NCBI GenBank assembly: GCA_017308135.1
Contig: JAFKFM010000006.1
Coordinates: 375,724-439,723, forward strand
Reading direction: 5' to 3'
Length of the DNA stretch: 64,000 nt
DNA from: Alphaproteobacteria bacterium
GTDB lineage: Bacteria; Pseudomonadota; Alphaproteobacteria; CACIAM-22H2
Shown here: piece by piece, positions 28,942 through 36,238 of the stretch
Position numbering within the stretch: position 1 is the first letter of the stretch
Layout: each line of letters starts with the position of its first letter
Made by a program: the position numbers and the translations under genes
The notes under the pieces: model-generated
The model's database searches: none
Told to the model about the DNA's origin: nothing
What the model saw: only the letters and a program-made list of their open reading frames with translations

Positions 28942-29582
28942 GCGGCGGGCGGCTGCGTCTTCGGTTTGAAGGCGCAGATATCCGCGACGACGCAGCGCCA
29001 GCATTCGGGCTTGCGCGCCTTGCACACGTAACGCCCGTGCAAAATCAGCCAGTGATGCGCATGTAGTTTGAAATCGGCGGGCGTGACTTTCTCGAGCTTG
29101 TCTTCGACTTGGCGCGGGTTCTTGCCTTTGGCCAATCCCGTGCGATTGCCGACGCGGAAGATGTGTGTGTCGACCGCGATGGTCGGCTCGCCATAGGCGA
29201 CGTTCAGAACGACATTCGCGGTCTTGCGCCCGACGCCGGGGAGTTCTTCGAGTTTCTCGCGCGCGCGCGGAATGCCGCCCGCGTAATCGCGCAGCAGGAT
29301 TTCCGACAGCGCGATCACGTTCTTGGCCTTGGTGTTGTAAAGCCCGATCGTCTTGACGTGGTCCTTTAGCCGGTCGAGACCGAGTGCCACCATTTCGGCC
29401 GGCGTTTTGACGATCTCGAACAATTTGCGCGTCGCCTTGTTGACGCCGACATCGGTCGCCTGCGCCGACAACACGACGGCGACGAGCAATTGATAGGGAT
29501 TGCCCCACAGCAATTCCGAGGTTGGCTCCGGATTTCGCTTGGCAAGGCGCGAATAGAACTCGCGAATAGCGTCAGGCTTCAT
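28938..29582 (-). CDS. nth: Endonuclease III (DNA glycosylase/AP lyase)
   Basis: The 214-residue protein carries the helix-hairpin-helix 'LEELPGVGRKTANVVLNVA' with the catalytic Lys, the catalytic Asp in 'AVDTHIFRV', and a [4Fe-4S] motif with Cys spacing C-x6-C-x2-C-x5-C at the C-terminus ('CKARKPECWRCVVADIC'). It removes oxidised pyrimidines in base-excision repair. The ATG at 29582 overlaps the stop of the TPR glycosyltransferase gene by four bases, so nth is the last gene of a minus-strand operon with two unrelated-looking partners. Confidence 0.95.
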   Translation of the reverse strand: MKPDAIREFYSRLAKRNPEPTSELLWGNPYQLLVAVVLSAQATDVGVNKATRKLFEIVKTPAEMVALGLDRLKDHVKTIGLYNTKAKNVIALSEILLRDYAGGIPRAREKLEELPGVGRKTANVVLNVAYGEPTIAVDTHIFRVGNRTGLAKGKNPRQVEDKLEKVTPADFKLHAHHWLILHGRYVCKARKPECWRCVVADICAFKPKTQPPAA

Positions 29583-31453
29583 GGCGCGGTCACATCGAAC
29601 GAGGCCGGTTTGAGACCGGCGCGCGCGCGTTCGATCATTGCCGCGAACGCCGCTTCGACATGCCGCGCCATGCGCGAAGCGTCGAAGGGCAAGTTCACGG
29701 CGACGGAAGCGTCGAGCCGGGCGCGCAAAGCGTCGCGCGCCGCCTTGTCTTGCGCCAAGCCAACGGCGCGCGCAACGAAATCCTCGACCGTCGCCGCGAT
29801 CAATTCCGGCAAGCCCAGCGCCGACAGGAACGACGCCGCGACATTCGCATGGGCTTGCTGGCCGCGCTTGGTCAGCACCGGCAAGCCCGCGCCCAGCGCA
29901 TCCAACGCGGTCGACGCGGCCGAGACGGCGAAGGAATCGAGGAATAGATCGGCCGCGCGATGGCGCGCGAGATGCGCGGCTTTGTCCGCCGCATGGGGGG
30001 CGAAGATCAATCGTGCCGGATCGATGCCCGCCACTTGCGCGCGCGCGCGCAACTGGCTTTGCGCGGGCGTATAGGCTTTGCGCCCCGCGAGCCACAACAC
30101 GCTGCCGGGCACGCGCTTCAGCACGTCGAGCCACGCGGCGAAGCACACGGGCTCGATCTTCAACGGATTGCAGAAAGCGGCGAAGATGATCGCGTTTTCG
30201 GGTAGGCCCAATTCGGCGCGCGTCGGCGCGGGCCCCGCCGGGAAGCGATCGGCCGGGTGATAGCAAACCGGCAGGCGCGCGATGGCTTCGACATGCCCCG
30301 CCGGATCGAGGGCCACGATCGCGTCGGCGATCGTGTAGTCGATATAGGGCGCTTCCAAGAAGCCGCCATGCCCGATCCAGTAGACCTGCACGGGCGCGGG
30401 CCGCGCGGCGAGAATCTCCGGCCGTCCGCCGGCCATGTAGCCCGACAGATCGACCAGCACGTCGATCTTGCGCGCCCGAGTCGCGGCGGCGGCTTTCGGC
30501 GAATCCATGGCCGACAGATCGACGAAATCGTCGGCGGCGCGTTTGAGATCGGCAAGCCACGGCCCCGGTTCGGACGAACGATCCTTCAACGACAGCAGCA
30601 CGATTTCGAAACGCGATTTGTCGTGAGCGGCGATCATCGAACGCAGCACATGGCTCATCGCGTGATTGCCAAAATCGGGCGACAGATAGCCGACGACGAT
30701 CTTGCCGGTGCCCGGCATCACCGGCGGCAATTTCGTCGCAGCGCGCGCCAGCGCCGCGCCCAAGGCGGTCTGCGCTTTTTTCACGCGCGCCGGATCGTCG
30801 GCCATGAAAGGCAGCGTGTAGGCCAGCGAATAAAGCGCGTTGGTCGCCATGCCACGGGCGAGGCGCGCATCGAGTTCGCCGAGCAATTCCAACGCGCGAT
30901 CCCAGCGGCAGGCATGCCACAGCGTCGAGATCGCCTCGGCATAGGCGTCGTCGCGCGCGGGATTTTTGGCGAGCACGCGCAAGAACAGATCGGCGGCTTT
31001 GTCCGGATCATCGACGCGCGAGGCTTGCGCGAGGTTGACCAGCGTCGAGGCGTGATCGGGGTCGATCGCCAGCGCCTTGCGCCACGCATCCTGCGCGTCG
31101 CGCGCAAGGCCGAGCTGGCCACACGCGACACCCAGATTGTTCCAGGCCGTAACGTTCGAAGGTTCGAGTTCGACCGCCTTCAACGCGGCATCGCGCGCGG
31201 AACCGGGCTTATGCGCGTCGAGCAAGGCGGCGGCGAGATTGGCGTGGATCAGCGCGATCTGCGGCGCCAACGCCGCCGCTTTCGCGTAATCGGTGGCGGC
31301 CTCGGCGGCACGGCCGAGCATATGGAACGTCACGCCGCGATTGACCAGCGCCATCAGATCGCCGGGATTTGCGGCCAAGGCTTGGTCATAGGCGGCGAGT
31401 GCGCCCGACAGATCGCCCTTGCCGCGCCGCGCATCGCCGTCCGCGACGCTCAT
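29579..31453 (-). CDS. TPR/O-GlcNAc-transferase-like (SPINDLY-type) protein
   Basis: The 624-residue protein has about five TPR units in residues 5-180 ('AAYDQALAANPGDLMALVNRG', 'VTAWNNLGVACGQLG') and a C-terminal region (about 250-620) like the catalytic part of O-GlcNAc transferases: 'IVVGYLSPDFGNHAMSHVLRSMIAAHD', 'DVLVDLSGYMAGGRPEILAARPAPVQVYWIGHGG', 'FCNPLKIEP' and 'LDSFAVSAASTALDALGAGLPVLT'. Such bacterial enzymes probably modify proteins or nascent surface structures with a nucleotide-sugar-derived sugar. The start at 31453 overlaps the methyltransferase stop. Flagellin is a typical acceptor elsewhere, but no flagellar gene is present here. Confidence 0.8.
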   Translation of the reverse strand: MSVADGDARRGKGDLSGALAAYDQALAANPGDLMALVNRGVTFHMLGRAAEAATDYAKAAALAPQIALIHANLAAALLDAHKPGSARDAALKAVELEPSNVTAWNNLGVACGQLGLARDAQDAWRKALAIDPDHASTLVNLAQASRVDDPDKAADLFLRVLAKNPARDDAYAEAISTLWHACRWDRALELLGELDARLARGMATNALYSLAYTLPFMADDPARVKKAQTALGAALARAATKLPPVMPGTGKIVVGYLSPDFGNHAMSHVLRSMIAAHDKSRFEIVLLSLKDRSSEPGPWLADLKRAADDFVDLSAMDSPKAAAATRARKIDVLVDLSGYMAGGRPEILAARPAPVQVYWIGHGGFLEAPYIDYTIADAIVALDPAGHVEAIARLPVCYHPADRFPAGPAPTRAELGLPENAIIFAAFCNPLKIEPVCFAAWLDVLKRVPGSVLWLAGRKAYTPAQSQLRARAQVAGIDPARLIFAPHAADKAAHLARHRAADLFLDSFAVSAASTALDALGAGLPVLTKRGQQAHANVAASFLSALGLPELIAATVEDFVARAVGLAQDKAARDALRARLDASVAVNLPFDASRMARHVEAAFAAMIERARAGLKPASFDVTAP

Positions 31454-31971
31454 GCGGCTTTCGTCGCGATCACGTTGAGGGAGATCGGCACGCCGAAGGA
31501 TTTCCAAATGCTGGTGTCGTCGAACAGGCCGAAGGCTTCGACGCGGCGCGCTTGCGCGAAGCCTGCGCGCGCCAGAAAGCCGGTCAGGATGTCCCAATTG
31601 AAGCCGACGCGATGGAAATCATGCGCGTCGGTCTGATCGCCGTAGAGATGGCACATCAAGGTTTCGCGCGCTTGGGCCGGCATCGCGTCGCTCGCCCACA
31701 TGCGGCAGATGATATCGAGATCGGGCACCGCGATTTTCAATTCGCCGCCGGGGGCGAGCACGCGATACGCCTCGCGCAGCGCCTTGGGCAATTCCTGGCG
31801 GAAGCCCAGATGCTCGTAGACATGCGAGGCATAGATTTCCGCGACCGTGCCGTCGGCGAAGGCGGACAGATCGGCGCAGTCGCCGACGATGTCCACACCC
31901 GGCCCCGGCAGAACGTTGAGCAACGTCCAGCCCGGCTTCGCTTCGGTTCCGCCCAAATGCAAACGAATCAT
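31450..31971 (-). CDS. SAM-dependent methyltransferase (class I, small)
   Basis: The 173-residue protein begins 'IRLHLGGTEAKPGWTLLNV', then has a Rossmann-like core 'IVGDCADLSAFADGTVAEIYASHVYEHLGFRQELPKALREAYRVLAPGGELKIAVPDLD', typical of short methyltransferases next to polysaccharide genes; the Asp in 'VGDCADL' and the 'ASHVYEHL' motif take the SAM-binding role. It probably methylates a sugar or a glycan intermediate. It is the first gene of the operon with the OGT-like gene and nth (4-base overlap), which points to a shared glycosylation task. Confidence 0.7.
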   Translation of the reverse strand: MIRLHLGGTEAKPGWTLLNVLPGPGVDIVGDCADLSAFADGTVAEIYASHVYEHLGFRQELPKALREAYRVLAPGGELKIAVPDLDIICRMWASDAMPAQARETLMCHLYGDQTDAHDFHRVGFNWDILTGFLARAGFAQARRVEAFGLFDDTSIWKSFGVPISLNVIATKAA

Positions 31972-33294: not shown

Positions 33295-34032
33295 TCAGAT
33301 GTTCAGTTTTTTGAAAATACGTTCCGGGATGTGCTTGATGATCGTCATGATGCCCCACCAGAAGAAGGGCGCGTAGACGATATCGCGTTTCTTGGCCGCC
33401 GCCGTCAATGCGGCCTTGGCGATGGCGGCCGGGGACGCGACCAGGAACAGGCCCGGCAAGCCCCAGGTCATCGCGGTATCGACGAAGCCGGGTTTCAGCG
33501 TGACGACATGCGCCCCCGACCGGACGAGGCGCGCGCGCAAGCCCTGGAGATAGGCGTGCAGCCCCGCCTTGGCGGAGCCGTAGACATAGTTTTTGAGCCG
33601 CCCGCGATCGCCCGCGACGGAGCCGAGCGCGATCACCGTGCCGGATTTCTGCGCCTCGAAGACGGGGGCGAAACGCTGCAACAGCAGCACCGCCCCGGTG
33701 TAGTTCGTGACGATCGTCGCGGCGGCAAGGCCCGGATCGGCGTCGATCTCGGCTTGCGCGGGCATCGTCCCGGCGGCGAGGAAGAGATTGATCTCCGCGC
33801 CGTTCGCGAAGCTTTGCGCGGCGTCAAGCAAGACGGCATGTTCGCTGGCGTCGGCCACATCGAAATGCTCGACGCGGACGGCCACATTGGCGCGCGTCGC
33901 AATATCGGCCGCGTTGGCGGTCAGATCGTCGCGGTCGCGCCCGGCGAGCAGAATGCCCGCCCCTTGCATCGCCGCTTGGCGCGCGAATTCCCGTGCGATG
34001 GTGGAGGACGCGCCGATCACGACCCAGATCAT
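33295..34032 (-). CDS. DprE2-like short-chain reductase (polyprenyl-phospho-2-keto-ribose reductase)
   Basis: The 245-residue short-chain dehydrogenase has 'VVIGASSTIAREFARQAAMQGAGILLAGRDRDDL' at the nucleotide site and a catalytic Tyr-x3-Lys in 'YVYGSAKAGLHAYLQGL' with Ser in 'IALGSVAGDRG'. Among SDRs the 'IALGSVAGDRGR.KNYVYGSAKA' region with a hydrophobic basic C-terminus ('IIKHIPERIFKKL') is characteristic of DprE2 (Rv3791 in M. tuberculosis, 254 residues), which reduces the 2-keto intermediate to decaprenylphosphoryl-arabinose. The DprE1-like gene overlaps by four bases upstream, which is the main support for the specific call. Confidence 0.8.
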   Translation of the reverse strand: MIWVVIGASSTIAREFARQAAMQGAGILLAGRDRDDLTANAADIATRANVAVRVEHFDVADASEHAVLLDAAQSFANGAEINLFLAAGTMPAQAEIDADPGLAAATIVTNYTGAVLLLQRFAPVFEAQKSGTVIALGSVAGDRGRLKNYVYGSAKAGLHAYLQGLRARLVRSGAHVVTLKPGFVDTAMTWGLPGLFLVASPAAIAKAALTAAAKKRDIVYAPFFWWGIMTIIKHIPERIFKKLNI

Positions 34033-35378
34033 GCCGGCCCCCTTCGAATACCCAAGCGCCGCGACAAATCCGATTCGAAGCGCTTCTCGGGATCGAATTC
34101 CGCCAACACGGCTTCGAACTCGGCCAAGCGCGGATAGGTCGTGCGGAACGTGGCCGCCGATTGATGCGAATCCTTGGCGAGATAAATGCGCCCGCCCGCA
34201 TCGCGCGCGATCGCTTCCAGCGATGCGAGCAATTCGTCGGCCCCGGGCGCGTTGGGAATATCGAGCGCGAGCGTCACGCCGCGCATCGGGAAGGAGAGCA
34301 AGCCATGCCCTTCCCCGCCCAATGTTTTGAGCACGGCGAGGAACGAGGCGTTGCCGGTCGCCGCGACTTTTTCCAGCATGTCGCGCACCGCGTCGCGCGC
34401 CGGGCCGTCGGGCACGACCGCCTGGAATTGATGGAAGCCGCGCTTGCCGTAAAGCCGGTTCCAATCCGCCAGCGAGTCGAGCGGATAAAGGAAGCGGTCG
34501 AGGGCGCGTTCGCCCGTACGGCCCGCTTCGGGTACACGGCGCCAATAAAGTTCGTTGAAGCCACGCACGATGGGGGCGGACAAGGCGAAGCCCGGCAGGT
34601 CGAACGGGATCGGCTTGGGCGCGCGCAAACCCGGCGGACGCTGGGCGGCGTCGGGCGCGTATTCCGCCGTTTCGAAAATGCCGCGGCCGAGCTGCCCGCC
34701 TTTGGCGAGCGCATCGACCCAGCCGACGGTGAAAGTCGCGGAGTCGCGCGACGCGGCGAATTCCTCGAAGAATTCGTCCAGATCGTCGATCCGCGATTCT
34801 TTGACGCGCACAAAGGGCGATGCGGGTGCGAGGCGCAGCGCCAAGCGGCGCACGAAGCCGGTCAAACCCATGCCGCCGATCGTCGCGCGAAACAGATCGG
34901 CGTTTTGATCGCGCGCGCACCGCAGCGTCTCGCCGTTCGCGATCAGCAGATCGATCCATTCGACATGCGCGCCGAACGATCCCGCGCGATCGTGGTTCTT
35001 GCCATGCGCATCGGCGGCGAGCGCGCCGCCCAACGTGGCGTACATCGTGCCGGGCGAAACCGGCGCCGCCAGCCCGCGCGGCAGGAAGGCGGCCAGAATA
35101 TCGGCGAAGGTCACACCCGGCTCGGCGACCAGCAGATTCGTCGCCGGATCGAAGGACACGAACCGGTCGAGCCGCGTGCCGAGGATCAACGCACCATCGG
35201 TGACTTGCGCCGCGTCGCCGTAGGACCTTCCGTTGCCGCGCGGCAGCGTGGCGCCGAATTCCTTCGCCGTCGCGAACGCGGCGTCGAGCTCGGCTTGGCG
35301 TTCGGGCCTTGCGGCACGCGCCAAGGCAGGGGCCGTGCGGCCCCAGCCGGCGAAGCGATCGGTCTTCCAGCGAATCAT
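34029..35378 (-). CDS. DprE1-like FAD oxidase (polyprenyl-phospho-ribose 2-epimerase subunit)
   Basis: The 449-residue VAO/PCMH flavoprotein has the FAD loop 'RGNGRSYGDAA', 'SPGTMYATLGGALAADAHGKNHDRAGSFGAHV', and the DprE1 C-terminal pattern 'GRIYLAKDSHQSAATFR.TYPRLAEF' ending 'SDLSRRL'. DprE1 (Rv3790, 461 residues) oxidises decaprenylphosphoryl-ribose at C2. By spacing, Lys402 here corresponds to catalytic Lys418 there, 31 residues after position 387; position 387 (Cys in M. tuberculosis) corresponds to Ala371 here. It starts within the UbiA stop and ends within the DprE2-like start (4-base overlaps both sides). Confidence 0.85.
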   Translation of the reverse strand: MIRWKTDRFAGWGRTAPALARAARPERQAELDAAFATAKEFGATLPRGNGRSYGDAAQVTDGALILGTRLDRFVSFDPATNLLVAEPGVTFADILAAFLPRGLAAPVSPGTMYATLGGALAADAHGKNHDRAGSFGAHVEWIDLLIANGETLRCARDQNADLFRATIGGMGLTGFVRRLALRLAPASPFVRVKESRIDDLDEFFEEFAASRDSATFTVGWVDALAKGGQLGRGIFETAEYAPDAAQRPPGLRAPKPIPFDLPGFALSAPIVRGFNELYWRRVPEAGRTGERALDRFLYPLDSLADWNRLYGKRGFHQFQAVVPDGPARDAVRDMLEKVAATGNASFLAVLKTLGGEGHGLLSFPMRGVTLALDIPNAPGADELLASLEAIARDAGGRIYLAKDSHQSAATFRTTYPRLAEFEAVLAEFDPEKRFESDLSRRLGIRRGPA

Positions 35379-36238
35379 GCGTAGATCAGATAACCGAAGA
35401 CGGCGAGCCAGCCCAGCACGCAAACGATCAGGAATCGGTCGGAGAGGGCGATTTCAGTCGGGGAGCCCGAGCGCTTTTCGACAAGCGCGATCTGGAGATA
35501 GCGCAGGATTCCGGCGACCACAAAGGGGGCCGTCATATAAAGCCGTTCGGTGCCGAACTTGCGCAAGACCGCGTCGTCGGTCGTGTACATGAGGTACCCG
35601 ACCAGCAACGCGCCGAGCACCACGGCGATCGCCGTATCGATGAAGGGCAGATTGTAACCGGCAAGCGACTTGCGGTGTGCGGCGTCCAGATCGCTGGTCA
35701 GGTCGTCGCGCCGCTTGGCCAGCGCCAGGAACAACGCCAACAAGCCGGTGCAGACCAGGATCCACACCGTGGGCACGATTCCGATCGCCACCGCGCCGGC
35801 CTCGACGCGCAAGACGAAGCTGACCGCGATCACCAGCACGTCGAGCAGCGAGATATTTTTGAGCCCGAGCGAATAGGCGATGTTGAGGACGGCGTAGCAC
35901 GCCAGGATCGCGCCGAACTCGGGCGGCAAACGCAGTGCGAGCGCGCTGCCGGCCAGCAGCAGCAGGGCCGCGAAAACCAGCGCCGCATGGGGCGCTACGG
36001 CGCCGGACGCGACCGGGCGATGGCGCTTCTCGGGATGCAGGCGATCGGCTTCGCGATCCATCCAGTCGTTGAAGGCGTAGATCGCCGACGCGACCAGGCT
36101 GAAAGCGAGCACCGCCTGCACGACAATCGCCGCCGACGCCCAGGACAAGGCGCTGGGCGTGAAAAACAGCGGAGCCGCCACGAAGGCGTTTTTGACCCAA
36201 TGCTTGGGCCGGGCGAGGCGAAGGAACGGGGCGATCAT
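35375..36238 (-). CDS. UbiA-family prenyltransferase, probable decaprenyl-phosphate phosphoribosyltransferase
   Basis: The 287-residue membrane protein has about nine helices and the two Asp-rich UbiA sites: 'NDWMDREADRLHPEKRHRPVASG' (first motif, near residue 57) and 'LAKRRDDLTSD' (second, near 175). The N-terminus 'FLRLARPKHWVKNAFVAAPLFF' and the RHRP/S-G pattern are those of DPPR synthase (Rv3806c type), which transfers 5-phosphoribose to polyprenyl phosphate, rather than UbiA for ubiquinone. The partner enzymes encoded downstream make this specific assignment likely. The stop overlaps the DprE1-like start. Confidence 0.85.
   Translation of the reverse strand: MIAPFLRLARPKHWVKNAFVAAPLFFTPSALSWASAAIVVQAVLAFSLVASAIYAFNDWMDREADRLHPEKRHRPVASGAVAPHAALVFAALLLLAGSALALRLPPEFGAILACYAVLNIAYSLGLKNISLLDVLVIAVSFVLRVEAGAVAIGIVPTVWILVCTGLLALFLALAKRRDDLTSDLDAAHRKSLAGYNLPFIDTAIAVVLGALLVGYLMYTTDDAVLRKFGTERLYMTAPFVVAGILRYLQIALVEKRSGSPTEIALSDRFLIVCVLGWLAVFGYLIYA

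Follow-up and report, generated by a model that had tools for sequence, protein, structure and literature searches.

The 64,000-nucleotide stretch of alphaproteobacterial DNA considered here (the window; positions 375,724 to 439,723 of contig JAFKFM010000006.1, assembly GCA_017308135.1) contains, at 33295-36238 on the minus strand, a cassette of three intact open reading frames of the UbiA, DprE1 and DprE2 types, which, judged by sequence, most likely makes polyprenyl-phospho-D-arabinofuranose. The complete reading, in which the cassette makes polyprenyl-phospho-beta-D-arabinofuranose that is then flipped and attached to a surface polysaccharide by a distantly encoded GT-C-like enzyme, is held with reasonable, though not high, confidence. 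Many other bacteria are known to have the pathway as such, and free-standing Gram-negative versions exist; new here are a strong candidate for the transferase and the documented lack of the customary phosphatase and flippase.

In the proposed route, phosphoribosyl pyrophosphate (PRPP) and polyprenyl phosphate would be converted into polyprenyl-phospho-beta-D-arabinofuranose, with the 5-phosphate removed by a phosphatase encoded outside the cassette, C2 oxidized by DprE1 with flavin adenine dinucleotide (FAD), and the keto group then reduced with inversion by DprE2 with NAD(P)H. A flippase would move the lipid-linked sugar to the periplasm, where the GT-C-like enzyme, whose gene lies beside a WcaJ gene, would add the D-arabinofuranose to a surface polysaccharide.

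The UbiA-type protein scores 245.9 bits with the NCBIfam model for decaprenyl-phosphate phosphoribosyltransferase (NF008977), which passes the cut-off of 234, and reaches only 29 bits with ubiA_proteo and 48 bits with the heme O synthase model. Its sole relatives in the PDB are the structures of the mycobacterial enzyme, 8j8j (E 5.8e-32) and 8j8k, and the Asp-rich substrate motif of 8j8j, NDxxDxxxDxxHPxKxxRP, is retained in the alignment. A tree was built from the window protein, Rv3806c, UbiA and CyoE of Escherichia coli, and 46 further UbiA proteins that are linked to cassettes in several phyla; in it the window protein stands among the cassette proteins and Rv3806c, separate from the E. coli enzymes (a 96 split). 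The outcome that the original prediction named as refuting, a place among the ubiquinone or heme prenyltransferases, did not occur.

The DprE1-type protein matches Mycobacterium tuberculosis DprE1 (5oel) over its full length at E 6.3e-78, and the next other enzyme follows at E 8.3e-15; DprE1 is thus its best match among VAO/FAD oxidases. In Rv3790 numbering, K418, H132, K134, K367, Q334, Q336, D318, R325, and W230 are kept; C387 is replaced by A371 and position 314 by L297, and the positions of N385 and S228 also differ from M. tuberculosis. The solved chain used for this mapping carries Cys at position 314, where the wild-type enzyme has Tyr. Alanine occupies the Cys387 position in all eight of the aligned proteobacterial DprE1-type proteins (alignment A3, column of A371). 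Because Ala replaces Cys387, the residue targeted by covalent benzothiazinones, these compounds are predicted to be inactive on the proteobacterial proteins that bear it. For the DprE2-type protein, the best PDB match is DprE2 itself (21gq_C, E 6.6e-28), with the runner-up at E 4.4e-13 and other short-chain dehydrogenases/reductases (SDRs) far behind, and the Tyr-x3-Lys motif of SDRs is present as YGSAK. Family scores, PDB matches, residues, and the tree together support the biochemical core of the original prediction, namely that PRPP and polyprenyl phosphate are turned into polyprenyl-phospho-arabinose.

The three genes are coupled as first described, both junctions being ATGA overlaps of four base pairs (Table 1). 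Comparison with two sister species gave dN/dS values of 0.05-0.19 for the cassette genes and 0.06-0.09 for the neighboring dapB; the cassette is under purifying selection. Of 10 congeners 9 carry it, as do 16 of the 23 genomes of the family; since dN/dS resembles that of dapB and the gene order is kept across the family, the arrangement is not due to chance. A scan of the region for promoters and terminators gave no signal above chance.

Table 1. Coordinates of the cassette and of the other genes discussed
Feature	Location	Strand	Length	Description
ubiA-type gene	36238-35375	minus	287 aa	predicted polyprenyl-phosphate 5-phosphoribosyltransferase (decaprenylphosphoryl-phosphoribose (DPPR) synthase, Rv3806c/NoeC type), without HAD domain
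dprE1-type gene	35378-34029	minus	449 aa	predicted polyprenylphosphoryl-beta-D-ribose 2-oxidase (FAD)
dprE2-type gene	34032-33295	minus	245 aa	predicted polyprenylphosphoryl-2-keto-pentose reductase (SDR)
ATGA overlap, UbiA stop / DprE1 start	35375-35378	minus	4 bp	seen in the sequence
ATGA overlap, DprE1 stop / DprE2 start	34029-34032	minus	4 bp	seen in the sequence
dapB	33281-32484	minus		open reading frame, 13 bp past the DprE2 stop
GT-C-like ortholog of the window genome	G000:C6:111030-112499		489 aa	about 297 kb from the cassette; only one in the genome
PF02681 gene beside stand-alone UbiA	L251:6834-7250			candidate 5-phosphatase
PF02681 gene beside stand-alone UbiA	L157:12065-12541			candidate 5-phosphatase
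PF02681 gene beside stand-alone UbiA	L199:8149-8565			candidate 5-phosphatase

No candidate GT-C gene of the genome lies within the 64-kb window, in keeping with the earlier statement that an arabinosyltransferase is absent from it. From linkage and co-occurrence, the missing enzyme is probably a member of a family of GT-C-like membrane proteins (alignment A4), whose gene (A1/A4) is adjacent to and divergent from UbiA in four related genera (G011, G012, G013, and G015). Among the 23 genomes of the family, 15 have both DprE1 and the GT-C-like gene and 6 have neither (Fisher p = 4.6e-4, ignoring shared ancestry). Both discordant genomes are drafts that are not complete: G017, with DprE1 only, has a contig that ends inside UbiA, and G007, with the GT-C-like gene only, is 84% complete. 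Outside the family, the gene occurs in 2 of 73 genomes, both DprE1-positive, while DprE1 occurs in 9 of the 73 (p = 0.014). The protein has about 10 hydrophobic segments, an invariant Glu-Asp (ED) pair right after the first of them, and a polar C-terminal part, and it may adopt a GT-C fold; GT-CA arabinosyltransferases such as AftB have a catalytic Asp at the place corresponding to that ED pair (PMC12041299). Its gene is neighbored by WcaJ, an undecaprenyl-phosphate glucose phosphotransferase (524 bits, cut-off 411), and in the genus also by a UDP-sugar epimerase/decarboxylase-like gene and RegB/RegA, which suggests that the acceptor of the D-arabinofuranose is a surface polysaccharide.

Several observations weigh against the complete reading. 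The co-occurrence of DprE1 and the GT-C-like gene is inflated by shared descent. The GT-C-like family has no Pfam match above cut-off (PMT_2 appears weakly in 2 of 14 members, best E 0.0011), its PDB profile search returned chance matches only and no relative, and a single-sequence structure model of one relative had a predicted local distance difference test (pLDDT) score of 44 and was not used. Within the cassette, the DprE1 protein has NF053785 as its top family at 379.9 bits, under the equivalog cut-off of 500, and the DprE2 protein scores 161.3 bits with NF053786, under the cut-off of 250; both are therefore distant homologues ("DprE1-like") outside those NCBIfam equivalog models. Searches for PAP2 (PF01569) and PRP-type HAD proteins, which did not extend to the divergent PAP2 family PF02681, gave no phosphatase candidate common to the family. 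The flippase search covered GtrA and LPG_synthase_TM, with MATE not searched; the window genome has no GtrA gene, and the single LPG_synthase_TM protein it encodes was rejected for this role, as it is only remotely related to the clade found with cassettes.

The strongest competing explanation is that the donor is made as described and attached by another protein, be it NoeP-like, TfpW-like, or another GT-C enzyme, with the GT-C-like protein using a different sugar lipid. The gene is indeed unlinked to the cassette in the window's genus, the genome encodes two other PMT_2 proteins, and the cassettes of G050 and of Rhizobium and Salipiger bear unrelated membrane transferase-like genes. This explanation is nevertheless considered unlikely, given the linkage in four related genera and the family-wide co-occurrence with the cassette, the distribution within one genus (G022 has both, while G016, G019, and G021 have neither), and the fact that none of the 64 DprE1-negative genomes sampled outside the family has the GT-C-like gene. 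A bolder version of the favored reading, that the A4 family comprises undescribed GT-C D-arabinofuranosyltransferases with which members of the alphaproteobacterial family decorate a WcaJ-initiated surface polysaccharide, and that the phosphatase and flippase of the donor route come from families new to the pathway, is put forward tentatively, at slightly below an even chance.

A second alternative, judged improbable, is that the DprE1 and DprE2 proteins act on another polyprenyl-linked pentose or on a 5-phosphorylated substrate and yield something other than D-arabinofuranose. It draws on the scores under the equivalog cut-offs, on the differences from M. tuberculosis at the positions of Y314, N385, S228, and C387, and on the failure of the PF01569 and PRP-type HAD searches to find a phosphatase; the nine conserved DprE1 residues listed above speak against it, as do NoeH and NoeO, members of the same broad DprE1 and DprE2 families, whose system makes D-arabinofuranose and likewise has no phosphatase in the cassette (PMC5080398). 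The phosphatase step is absent from the window, as had been noted: PRP-type HAD phosphatases have no match in the window genome, and none of its three PAP2 genes lies inside the window. PAP2 (PF01569) is unsupported as the required phosphatase, being missing from near-complete congeners that bear the cassette, and a Ser/Thr-phosphatase-like gene near the GT-C-like gene is a weak lead and is confined to the window species, G009, and G022. That no phosphatase was found does not argue against function, because the noe cluster of Rhizobium sp. IRBG74, which arabinosylates Nod factors and whose UbiA protein lacks a HAD domain, is likewise devoid of a phosphatase gene. Elsewhere, divergent PAP2 genes (PF02681/DUF212) stand beside stand-alone UbiA-type genes in Marivivens, Pseudomonas indica, and Thiothrix, and these are candidates for a second kind of 5-phosphatase.

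The enzyme families are the same three in the mycobacterial pathway to decaprenyl-phospho-arabinose (Rv3806c, Rv3807c, DprE1 Rv3790, and DprE2 Rv3791), whose DprE1 catalytic residues and UbiA Asp-rich motif are retained here and whose lipid-linked arabinose goes into the cell wall of tuberculosis bacteria. In contrast to that pathway, no Rv3807c-like PAP2 gene is found alongside, and PF01569 is missing from most near-complete congeners; the candidate transferase has no sequence match to the mycobacterial arabinosyltransferases, and Cys387 is Ala. Nod factors are arabinosylated by noeCNHOP in Rhizobium sp. IRBG74 and by noeCHOP in Azorhizobium caulinodans (PMC5080398, PMC2443382), and NoeCHO with NoeP is a precedent for donor genes plus a transferase (PMC5080398). 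The noe clusters share with the cassette a HAD-less UbiA, DprE1, DprE2, and the lack of a cluster phosphatase gene, and the kinship claimed in the original prediction is borne out for noeC, noeH, and noeO; the IRBG74 cluster, which modifies Nod factors, also carries noeN and noeP, whereas the cassette has neither gene, and NoeP shows no similarity to the candidate transferase. Although noeN has been proposed to encode a decaprenylphosphoryl-phosphoribose phosphatase (PMC5080398), the product of this gene (L248:6846-7265, Agrobacterium pusense / Rhizobium sp. IRBG74 plasmid NC_022536.1) belongs to the GtrA family of membrane proteins (PF04138), which makes a flippase the more likely function.

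Two further systems serve as precedents for a free-standing Gram-negative cassette. In Pseudomonas paraeruginosa PA7, the island PSPA7_6245-6251 makes D-arabinofuranose for pili, and the GT-C transferase TfpW is encoded apart from the donor genes (PMC12369383); it is likewise a free-standing donor route with its transferase elsewhere, but its acceptor is type IV pilin, whereas here the WcaJ neighbor points to a polysaccharide. Three-component pentofuranose O-antigen systems use DprE1 and DprE2 homologues where the sugar is arabinofuranose (PMC11127046). Such systems (Citrobacter youngae; GT136) resemble the proposed route in their PRPP-derived polyprenyl-phosphate pentofuranose, flipping, and GT-C transfer; in Citrobacter a HAD phosphatase is fused to the synthase and the flippase is of the MATE type, whereas here there is no fused HAD and no adjacent flippase.

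These precedents (PMC12369383, PMC11127046), and a pattern scan of GTDB genomes that gave at least 580 confirmed DprE1 relatives, spread over hundreds of genomes, do not sustain the earlier impression that such a cassette is not obviously explained. Among the best 80 loci of these relatives, DprE2 accompanies DprE1 in 74 and a HAD-UbiA fusion is nearby in 36. GtrA is present in 21 and LPG_synthase_TM (TIGR00374/PF03706), mostly directly upstream of DprE1, in 19, never both in one locus; being mutually exclusive, they seem to fill one slot, presumably that of the flippase. LPG_synthase_TM stands in place of GtrA in L135, L137, L140, L141, L143-L146, L150-L152, L160, and L161, and further in L170, L171, L173, L202, L212, L050, L053, and L065. 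The sister species G009 has, separate from its window-type cassette, a second gene that is a HAD-UbiA fusion (L223, G009:C101; the contig begins inside the fusion).

The gene order in the family is dnaK - dnaJ - (variable) - UbiA - DprE1 - DprE2 - dapB - DUF2244-like - nth, where the names dnaK, dnaJ, dapB, nth, and DUF2244 were assigned by judging the sequences. In the window species and part of its congeners, the variable slot is filled by a tripartite ATP-independent periplasmic (TRAP) transporter operon; other members of the family have a histidine kinase there, and four other genera the large GT-C-like membrane protein. A functional tie of the cassette to lysine/diaminopimelate synthesis through dapB or to the TRAP carboxylate operon is very improbable: spacing is tight on both sides (13 bp to dapB and 43 bp from the end of the TRAP gene dctM to the UbiA start), but TRAP genes are missing from that place in most relatives, and in other families, as on Rhizobium and Salipiger plasmids, the cassette occurs apart from dapB. 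TRAP was thus rejected as a partner and, since the content of the slot varies, is incidental; a meaningful link to it is not supported. The neighborhood comparison likewise led to the rejection of dapB as a functional partner; dapB-DUF2244-like-nth is a conserved housekeeping neighborhood, which makes co-transcription of dapB with the cassette probable, while dapB itself is placed outside the D-arabinose pathway and the suggested link between sugar donor and cell-wall precursor synthesis is not supported. Near dapB, and assigned by eye only, are a TPR protein whose C-terminal part resembles SPINDLY/GT41 O-GlcNAc transferase-like proteins (29579-31597, minus strand) and an adjoining small methyltransferase-like gene (31450-31971, minus strand). 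The notion that the ubiA-type gene encodes a quinone or heme prenyltransferase, with unrelated oxidoreductases as neighbors, conceivable insofar as all three proteins come from large superfamilies (UbiA, VAO/FAD, and SDR), can be set aside, excluded as it is by family scores, PDB matches, and the tree, and opposed by a three-gene order kept across the family and a DprE1-DprE2 order kept in 74 of the best 80 loci.

With this finding, D-arabinofuranose is to be expected in one more group of bacteria, a family of Alphaproteobacteria, and an unannotated family of candidate transferases becomes open to testing. The finding also exposes the 5-phosphatase and the flippase as two gaps in a pathway that serves as a drug target in tuberculosis.

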